A DNA stretch of 45,005 nt from Bacteroidales bacterium (GTDB lineage: Bacteria; Bacteroidota; Bacteroidia; Bacteroidales; VadinHA17): assembly GCA_030596125.1 (NCBI GenBank), contig JAUVKT010000012.1:1-45005 (forward strand), written 5' to 3'. A program made the translations under genes and the position numbers. The notes under the pieces are model-generated. The model saw only the letters and a program-made list of their open reading frames with translations. It was not told where the DNA came from and made no database searches. Below, in pieces: positions 1 to 15,965 of the stretch (its first letter is position 1; each line of letters opens with the position of its first letter).

Positions 1-196
1 GAAGTCTTATAATATATTGACCTCATTCGATAAATATGTTATTAACGAAAAGGGAACAGAAAAACCCTTTACCGGTAAATATACAGATCATAAGGAAGAT
101 GGAACATTTGTATGCAAACAGTGTGGATCAGCACTTTATAAATCTGACAGTAAATTCGATTCAAAATGTGGCTGGCCAAGTTTTGATGAGGTATGA
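1..196 (+). pseudogene. msrB: methionine sulfoxide reductase B domain, 5' cut by window edge, 3' half missing
   Basis: The frame starting at base 2 reads 64 codons of an MsrB domain and stops at TGA 194-196. It contains the typical start of the fold (NEKGTEKPFTGKY), the first zinc-binding pair CKQC and the segment CGWPSFDE. A complete MsrB goes on for about 55 more residues, which carry the second CxxC zinc pair and the catalytic cysteine near RxCxNS. None of that is present, and the next readable sequence is the start of MsrA in another frame. The protein as read cannot reduce methionine-R-sulfoxide. In many Bacteroidota MsrB and MsrA are one fused protein in this order, so this looks like a fusion gene with an out-of-frame internal deletion, or an assembly error. 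The N-terminus lies upstream of the window. Confidence 0.85.
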
Positions 197-671
197 AACT
201 GCCATACTTGCCGGAGGTTGTTTCTGGGGTGTGGAATATTATTTACAGAAGCGCGAAGGTGTAAAGTCAGTTATTTCGGGATATATCGGAGGGCATATAA
301 AAAATCCATCCTATAAAGAGGTGTGTACAGGTAAAACAGGCCATGCCGAAGCAGTAAAGGTTATTTATGATCCGGAAAAGATAAGTTATGAAGAGGTCGT
401 CAGGCTGTTTCTGGAAATTCATGATCCAACCCAGGTCGACAGGCAGGGTCCGGATGTGGGTCATCAATACAGGTCTGAAATTTTCTATATGAATAATTAC
501 CAGAAAGAGATAGCAGAAATGCTGCTTGATGTTCTTGCCGGGAAAGGCTTTATTATTACTACCAGGGTTACAATAGCTTCAGAATTTTACGAGGCTGAAG
601 ATTACCATCAGGATTACTACCTTAATAATGGTAAGATGCCCTATTGTCATGGGTATACGAAGAGGTTTTAG
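186..671 (+). CDS. msrA: peptide-methionine (S)-S-oxide reductase MsrA
   Basis: The enzyme reduces methionine-S-sulfoxide in proteins and free methionine, using thioredoxin as electron donor. From ATG 186 the product has 161 residues, a normal length for a lone MsrA domain. The catalytic motif GCFWG lies at residues 11-15 (Cys12), followed by the usual GYxGG, GKTGHAEAV, PTQVDRQGPDVG and YRSEIF segments, and it ends with YCHGY, which supplies the likely resolving cysteine. The frame stays open back to base 36, but the translation before residue 1 is MsrB sequence read out of frame, so it is not a real N-terminus. The ATG overlaps the last codons of the truncated msrB frame (GATGAGGTATGA) and has no clear ribosome binding site. 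Expression may depend on translational coupling or may be poor. The MsrA domain itself looks intact. Confidence 0.9.
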   Translation: MRYETAILAGGCFWGVEYYLQKREGVKSVISGYIGGHIKNPSYKEVCTGKTGHAEAVKVIYDPEKISYEEVVRLFLEIHDPTQVDRQGPDVGHQYRSEIFYMNNYQKEIAEMLLDVLAGKGFIITTRVTIASEFYEAEDYHQDYYLNNGKMPYCHGYTKRF

Positions 672-704
672 AAGAAGTCGGGGAACCTGGAACCTGAAAC
701 TATC

Positions 705-9917: not shown

Positions 9918-11414
9918 ATGCTACTATCACCTCCTGATCCGCTGACAATATGTGACAGGATAAACCTTGCCTTCAAGCCGGTAGTTGATCTCCTTGATGT
10001 GATATTTTTCTGGGATCCTGTAAAGGCGGCAGGCATTGACATTGGGGCAGATGTACCTATTGTTGTATTATGGCTGCTGTTTGGAGGTCTCTATTTTACC
10101 TTCAGAATGAGGTTTATCAATATACGTGCATTCAGACATGCTTTTGGTCTGATCACAGGACGATATGATAAGCCCGGTAATGTTGGTGAGGTAAGTCATT
10201 TCCAGGCCCTTACCACTGCTCTTTCTGCAACAGTCGGACTCGGAAATATTACAGGTGTTGCTATAGCTATTACCATTGGCGGACCTGGCGCTACCTTTTG
10301 GATGATACTGGCCGGGTTTTTTGGTATGTCACTGAAATTTACGGAGTGCACACTTGGGATAAAGTACAGACATGTTGATGAAAACGGAAAGGTTTCAGGC
10401 GGACCGATGTACTATTTAAGTAAAGCATTATCTCTTAAGAAACTTGGAGGACTGGGTAAGGTGCTTGCTCTTTTTAGCGCCATTATGATGGTGCTGGCCT
10501 CATTTGGAGGGAGTAACATGCTACAGGCGAATCAGAGTTTTGCTCAGTTTGCAACAATTTTACCCGGAATAGAGGGGTATGGATTCTGGTTTGGTGTCGG
10601 ACTGTCTGTTTTGATAGCAATGGTAGTAGTTGGTGGGATTAAGGCTATCGCAAGAGTAACCGAAAAACTTGTCCCCTTTATGGCCGTTCTTTATATTGGT
10701 GCTGCACTTGTAATTATTGTAATGAATTTCAGCAGAGTTGATGATGTATTTATATTGATAATCAGAAGCGCTTTTCATCCTGTTGCAGTTGAGGGGGGAA
10801 TTATAGGAGTAATTATTACCGGGTTCAGGAGAGGCGCCTTCTCTAATGAGGCAGGTGTAGGCTCGGCTGCTGTTGCACATGCTGCTGCCCGGACAGACGA
10901 TCCGGTTAAGGAGGGTATTGTAGCAATGCTTGGGCCATTTATTGATACTATTATTATTTGTACAATGACAGCCCTTGTAATAATCTTCACCGGTTTTCAT
11001 TCCATTGACGGAACACTCGAGGGTACTGAACTTACATCTGCAGCTTTTGCTTCTGTCTTTCCATGGTTCCCTTACCTGCTTGTTGCTGTAATACTCTGTT
11101 TTGCATTTTCAACTATGATCTCCTGGTCATATTATGGTTTAAATGGGTTTAAATTTATTTTTGACAAAGGTCTCCGGAAACTTACCGGCAGCAACAGGTC
11201 TTCGGGATATATTTATTATTTTTTCTTTCTCTCATTTACAGTTATAGGAGCATCAAGCTCTCTTGATAATGTTATAGCTTTTTCAGATATGATGGTGTTA
11301 ACTCTGGCATTTCCTAATATTACCGGCCTGTTAATTCTTGCTCCTGAGATATGGAGCGATCTGAAGAATTATATGTCCCGACTCAGACAGGATGACATTA
11401 TCAAGTACAGGTAA
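9918..11414 (+). CDS. sodium:alanine/glycine symporter, AGCS family
   Basis: This 498-residue inner-membrane symporter takes up alanine, glycine or similar small amino acids with sodium. Landmarks are SATVGLGNITGVAIAITIGG near residue 106, the family signature GGPGATFWMILAGFFGMSLK directly after it, KFTECTLGIKYR, and FRRGAFSNEAGVGSAAVAHAAA near 303. The N-terminal FWDPVKAAGIDIGADVP region and about eleven membrane helices agree with the family. Length is normal. It follows the NSS-family transporter on the same strand and may be cotranscribed with it. Nearby peptide- and amino-acid-degrading genes fit such a role, but no direct link is shown. Confidence 0.92.
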   Translation: MLLSPPDPLTICDRINLAFKPVVDLLDVIFFWDPVKAAGIDIGADVPIVVLWLLFGGLYFTFRMRFINIRAFRHAFGLITGRYDKPGNVGEVSHFQALTTALSATVGLGNITGVAIAITIGGPGATFWMILAGFFGMSLKFTECTLGIKYRHVDENGKVSGGPMYYLSKALSLKKLGGLGKVLALFSAIMMVLASFGGSNMLQANQSFAQFATILPGIEGYGFWFGVGLSVLIAMVVVGGIKAIARVTEKLVPFMAVLYIGAALVIIVMNFSRVDDVFILIIRSAFHPVAVEGGIIGVIITGFRRGAFSNEAGVGSAAVAHAAARTDDPVKEGIVAMLGPFIDTIIICTMTALVIIFTGFHSIDGTLEGTELTSAAFASVFPWFPYLLVAVILCFAFSTMISWSYYGLNGFKFIFDKGLRKLTGSNRSSGYIYYFFFLSFTVIGASSSLDNVIAFSDMMVLTLAFPNITGLLILAPEIWSDLKNYMSRLRQDDIIKYR

Positions 11415-14163: not shown

Positions 14164-14237
14164 GCCGATGTAGCTCAGTTGGTCAGAGCAGCTGATTTGT
14201 AATCAGCAGGTCGGGGGTTCGAATCCCTTCATCGGCT
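14164..14237 (+). tRNA. tRNA-Thr (anticodon TGT)
   Basis: A full cloverleaf can be drawn. The acceptor stem GCCGATG pairs with CATCGGC, the D arm is TAGCTCAG-TTGGTCAGAGCA, and the anticodon stem GCTGA/TCAGC encloses the loop TTTGTAA with anticodon TGT. The T arm is GGGGG-TTCGAAT-CCCTT, which uses a G-U pair. CCA is not encoded. First of four tRNAs ahead of tuf. Confidence 0.97.
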
Positions 14238-14282
14238 CTTGAGCGAATTTGTAAGTGTATTACTGTTAATGATATCTCAGTT

Positions 14283-14365
14283 GGGGAGATACCAAAGTGG
14301 CCCACTGGGGCAGACTGTAAATCTGCTGTCGCACGACTTCGCAGGTTCGAATCCTGCTCTCCCCA
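14283..14365 (+). tRNA. tRNA-Tyr (anticodon GTA)
   Basis: The acceptor stem GGGGAGA pairs with TCTCCCC, and discriminator A is present. The anticodon stem GCAGA/TCTGC encloses CTGTAAA with anticodon GTA. A long variable arm (TGTCGCACGACTTCGCA region) marks a class II tRNA, as expected for bacterial tRNA-Tyr. Length 83 nt. CCA is not encoded. Confidence 0.97.
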
Positions 14366-14435
14366 CTTTTTAACATAGACCAGGGTCGGCACTTATTATT
14401 GACGATGTAAAACCTGTCCTCTTTTGGAAAAATAA

Positions 14436-14508
14436 GCGGGAGTAGCTCAGTTGGTAGAGCATCAGCCTTCCAAGCTGAGGGTCGCGGATTCGAATTCCGT
14501 CTCCCGCT
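14436..14508 (+). tRNA. tRNA-Gly (anticodon TCC)
   Basis: The acceptor stem GCGGGAG pairs with CTCCCGC. The anticodon stem TCAGC/GCTGA encloses CTTCCAA with anticodon TCC. The T arm is GCGGA-TTCGAAT-TCCGT, with one G-U pair. Length 73 nt, CCA not encoded. Confidence 0.97.
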
Positions 14509-14517
14509 CAAATTTTG

Positions 14518-14589
<72 letters not shown>

Positions 14590-15892: not shown

Positions 15893-15965
15893 ACGGGTGT
15901 AGCTCAGTTGGTAGAGCACTGGTCTCCAAAACCAGGTGTCGGGAGTTCGAGCCTCTCCTCCCGTG
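15893..15965 (+). tRNA. tRNA-Trp (anticodon CCA)
   Basis: The anticodon stem CTGGT/ACCAG encloses CTCCAAA with anticodon CCA. The D arm and the T arm (GGGAG-TTCGAGC-CTCTC) are normal. The acceptor stem ACGGGTG pairs with CTCCCGT except for a T-T mismatch at positions 6 and 67. The discriminator is G and CCA is not encoded. The gene lies 16 bp before secE. Confidence 0.95.

Follow-up and report, generated by a model that had tools for sequence, protein, structure and literature searches.

In this study, we found that the fused gene msrBA at the left edge of the window, the 45,005-bp stretch of DNA that was analyzed and the entire contig C30 of a draft genome (G000; 165 contigs, 2.70 Mb, 96.3% complete), lacks 185 bp out of frame, with a truncated MsrB followed by a complete MsrA in a different frame. 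A fused MsrB-MsrA is normally a double enzyme that repairs oxidised methionine. We lean slightly towards a real and recent deletion that turned msrBA into a pseudogene.

Results

The MsrB remnant (positions 2–196, plus strand) consists of 64 codons followed by TGA (194–196) and matches positions 1–58 of the 116 of SelR (PF01641). Its last residues are CGWPSFDEV, which agrees with the original prediction that the MsrB frame ended after CGWPSFDE. The remnant retains the first zinc CxxC and CGWPSF, and has neither a second CxxC nor the catalytic RxCVN; the predicted loss of the second zinc pair and the catalytic cysteine was thus borne out, by the domain match as well as by the relatives. SelR requires the catalytic cysteine and two zinc CxxC pairs, of which the first CxxC alone is left, yet the fragment exceeds the Pfam cut-off. 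As was also predicted, MsrA (186–671, plus strand) is intact and has its own ATG (186–188), which starts 8 bases before the overlapping MsrB stop in another frame and was created or retained at the join. It covers all 153 positions of PMSR (PF01625), contains the GGCFWG motif with the catalytic GCFWG, and reaches 181.1 bits against TIGR00401 (cut-off 108.1). No clear ribosome-binding site was seen by eye before this ATG. The contig starts at residue 27 of a 310-aa relative, and the 5′ end of the gene is thereby cut too, with about 26 codons plus the leader unassembled.

The distance from GWPSF to GGCFWG is 228 bases in relatives and 43 in the window, which is thus 185 bases shorter on balance (2 mod 3) than each of the nine relatives measured. 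This first comparison covered nine of ten relatives, as L146 is without the exact motifs; L146 was added in a later comparison and also gave 185 bp, so the value holds for all 10 intact orthologues and corresponds to about 62 codons. The loss is out of frame, as had been proposed, and larger than the proposed ~165 bp or ~55 codons. At the join (185–191, plus strand), the sequence on the left agrees with GATGA on the MsrB side, and that on the right with AGG in the linker preceding MsrA. Judged by eye, the relatives support a sequence common to both sides of 1 nt (left GATGATGAGG, right GGCAGG), of 2 nt where the right side reads GGGAGG, or of no more than 4 nt where the left side reads GATGAGG; the GAGGT-like matches suggested originally were not recovered as a clear repeat. 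The longest word common to both flanks was 5–8 nt in nine relatives and none was located at the join, so that repeat-mediated assembly collapse was rejected. A hairpin at the join was rejected as well, with a DNA fold z-score of 0.28, no better than shuffles.

The missing half of the gene is absent elsewhere in the genome: a full MsrBA query with E up to 10 returned the two window pieces only, no second SelR or PMSR domain was found across the genome's contigs, and no duplicate of window positions 1–700 was found. The lack of another intact msrB in the genome fits the loss of MsrB that had been claimed. Overall, the original prediction stood with respect to the loss, the lost sites, MsrA and the lack of a second msrB, and failed on the size and the GAGGT repeat.

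The gene order after msrA is the same as in relatives (L144–L148), and the gene upstream of msrBA in relatives sits at the start of contig C153, which terminates shortly before the msrBA start would be reached. Downstream synteny together with this neighbour at the facing contig end indicates that this is the correct msrBA locus, and the same gene order supports orthology of the window gene with NF004042 (PRK05550). Against this model, the window pieces scored 87.8 and 236 bits and the frame 36–671 scored 239.5 bits, below the cut-off of 330, whereas intact orthologues reached 444.5 and 432.8 bits. No overlap was found between C153 and C30, the longest common word being 12 nt and away from the ends.

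Among the 116 further genomes of the family, 70 carried a full-length fused msrBA, with 71 matches listed, and the rest had separate genes, fusion pieces or no match. Since the family usually carries the two as one fused gene, with the same genes after it in relatives, the adjacency of MsrB and MsrA in the window is not due to chance. The deletion of the window was found in none of the matches listed from the 116 other genomes. At 143 loci surveyed, MsrB was full-length at 115, with none near MsrA at 25, and the other three were the window itself; L047 and L089, counted among the 115, were missed by the motif and are intact by eye. A truncated MsrB was thus not seen in relatives, and the break in G116 is different, with the last 56 residues alone. 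MsrA was found without a detected MsrB in 6 of 59 relatives (G020, G023, G029, G034, G038, and G058), which indicates that loss of MsrB is tolerable.

Among the 86 distinct fused sequences whose letters were available, departures at the four zinc cysteines, the MsrB catalytic cysteine and GCFWG were confined to two members of the nearby genus g2: G024, where a zinc cysteine of MsrBA is changed to serine (L053), and G014, with GCFRG in place of GCFWG (L146). The cysteine before GWPSF and the serine inside it also vary in other sequences. The window was grouped with g2 and g7 in the tree (100/99), with a branching order among them that MsrA did not resolve, and a tree of one neighbouring gene paired it with G006 (88/89) rather than with g2; msrBA of G006 is intact. 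The mean identity of the B part minus that of the A part was −0.10 for the window (9 pairs) and −0.11 for the relatives among themselves (30 pairs). The MsrB remnant is therefore as conserved as expected, which argues for a recent loss.

Other forms of the gene were observed in the family. In G105, G072, G082, G116, and G139, msrBA breaks off or starts within residues ~251–284 of the 310-aa query according to the match coordinates; the break in G072 is a contig end, and in G116 the last 56 residues start at base 10,998 of a contig, with other DNA before them. Insertions or chimeras might recur at this point. At L095, MsrB and MsrA lie in one frame, and a stop after 120 residues closes the MsrB frame ahead of MsrA.

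Other frame breaks were surveyed in these drafts. On C30, 33 places were compared with relatives and four were dropped, namely msrBA, a place entered twice, and two places on the opposite strand to the listed ORF; the 29 other genes were each in one frame. Four tRNA genes are clustered at 14164–14588 of the window, with a fifth at 15893–15965, and a 105-aa ORF (14266–14583, minus strand) is antisense to the cluster and probably no gene. In G000, 56 contigs (814 kb) were compared with 899 reference ORFs, giving 153 comparable places with two large out-of-frame losses, namely msrBA and a gene at C20:15829–16120 (L187), which we take from its sequence to be asparaginase-like. The latter has a net loss of 728 bp compared with G006, possibly with 3–5 nt common at the join, and lies in the interior of a 47.7-kb contig. 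The same two losses were found when the survey was repeated at 35% identity (177 places). The reverse survey in G006 covered 147 places; of three discordant queries, one was a tRNA cluster read as an ORF and the other two were large out-of-frame losses, one with a weak C-terminal match. Two rounds of the G000 survey retained best matches of at least 50% and at least 45% identity, respectively, one per place. No small frameshifts were found in the 153 places of G000 or the 147 of G006, and internal stops occurred in 4 of 231 and 2 of 151 best matches, respectively. Four further alignments were flagged as short: C20 36349–36603 and the C153 end, both intact on reading, C31 775–1782, and C53 7968–8885. 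Large out-of-frame losses therefore occur in these drafts at a background level of about 1%, through either decay or faulty joins.

Discussion

Considering all the above results, a real deletion of msrBA is the reading to which we incline, if only a little. The ancestral gene would have been a fused msrB-msrA of the bifunctional MsrB/A type, normal in the family, from which 185 bp may recently have been deleted out of frame by illegitimate recombination or slippage, with the ends joined at 1–4 nt of common sequence. If the join is real, MsrB activity would be lost, and MsrA could be translated from the ATG at 186, either by re-initiation after the overlapping stop or from an independent start. 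Intact relatives start with a hydrophobic, signal-like N-terminal stretch (by eye). An MsrA begun at 186 is without this apparent export signal and so probably stays in the cytoplasm, or would be present at a low level.

A nearly comparable degree of belief, somewhat short of an even chance, is given to an assembly or library artefact, in which ~185 bp of an intact msrBA went missing through a chimeric read, or because a stretch with poor coverage was bridged by a forced join of short overlap. The join lies 187 bp from the contig end, next to the unassembled stretch between C153 and C30, and this counts against a real deletion; by arithmetic, about 2.3% of random positions fall within 190 bp of one of the 330 contig ends. 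The further large out-of-frame loss found in C20 and the two found in G006, without any small frameshifts in 153 and 147 places, form a pattern that would fit faulty joins, although the C20 loss is mid-contig. On the other side, the 29 other genes of C30 are free of frame breaks, which speaks for a real deletion, and the missing half occurs nowhere else in the genome. The short flank words, none of them at the join, likewise count for a real deletion, being too short for ordinary k-mer collapse; for an artefact, a chimeric read across the join or a forced joining of the ends would probably be the minimum. The lesions of g2 at otherwise invariant sites (G024 and G014) also favor a real deletion, and since the tree does not place g2 as the sister of the window's genus, our estimate for a real deletion was lowered slightly.

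Draft metagenome bins mix strains, and a mixed population, with intact and deleted msrBA in different cells and the deleted form assembled, would account for a true join beside a broken assembly graph. However, no second allele occurs in the genome's contigs, and we consider this improbable. A functional split gene or a programmed frameshift yielding both enzymes has a negligible probability. Translational coupling through the overlapping stop and start is conceivable, but the catalytic half of MsrB is absent rather than shifted, so that no recoding can produce MsrB.

If the deletion is real, it might belong to a wider trend, in which the g1/g2/g7 clade repeatedly loses selection on the exported MsrBA, as at the zinc cysteine, at GCFWG and in the window. 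Here, MsrB would have been removed, and MsrA, supplied with a start codon, would have left the envelope for the cytoplasm, where it would be the cell's sole methionine sulfoxide reductase. We regard this proposal as speculative and rather unlikely.

Whether it stems from gene decay or from a fault of the draft assembly, the break in msrBA is ordinary and has little reach beyond the G000 genome. As a real deletion, it would illustrate on a small scale how a fused repair enzyme can lose one of its domains, with an open frame and a start codon left to the other; as an artefact, it would show that large out-of-frame gaps in draft genes need read checks before gene loss is claimed.

Spurious pseudogenes are known to arise from assembly errors (PMC11017572), and the window gene resembles such cases in being a broken gene in a draft assembly; as far as the accessible part of that article goes, it deals with frameshifts and with stops inside genes, chiefly those of isolate genomes, and not with large internal losses. 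With the bifunctional MsrB/A model (NF004042), the window gene has in common the order of MsrB followed by MsrA, its pieces matching positions 8–68 and 135–292 of 293, and it is unlike the model in lacking positions ~69–134 and shifting frame. Compared with the MsrA models TIGR00401 and PF01625, its MsrA domain is complete, but is preceded by an MsrB remnant. The accessible part of PMC8000184 names fusions in either order, MsrAB and MsrBA, and the MsrAB of Helicobacter pylori is described there, the domains of which are less active when separated. In this enzyme, MsrA and MsrB are likewise fused through a linker; in contrast to the window gene, the domain order is reversed and, on the same account, there is no deletion.
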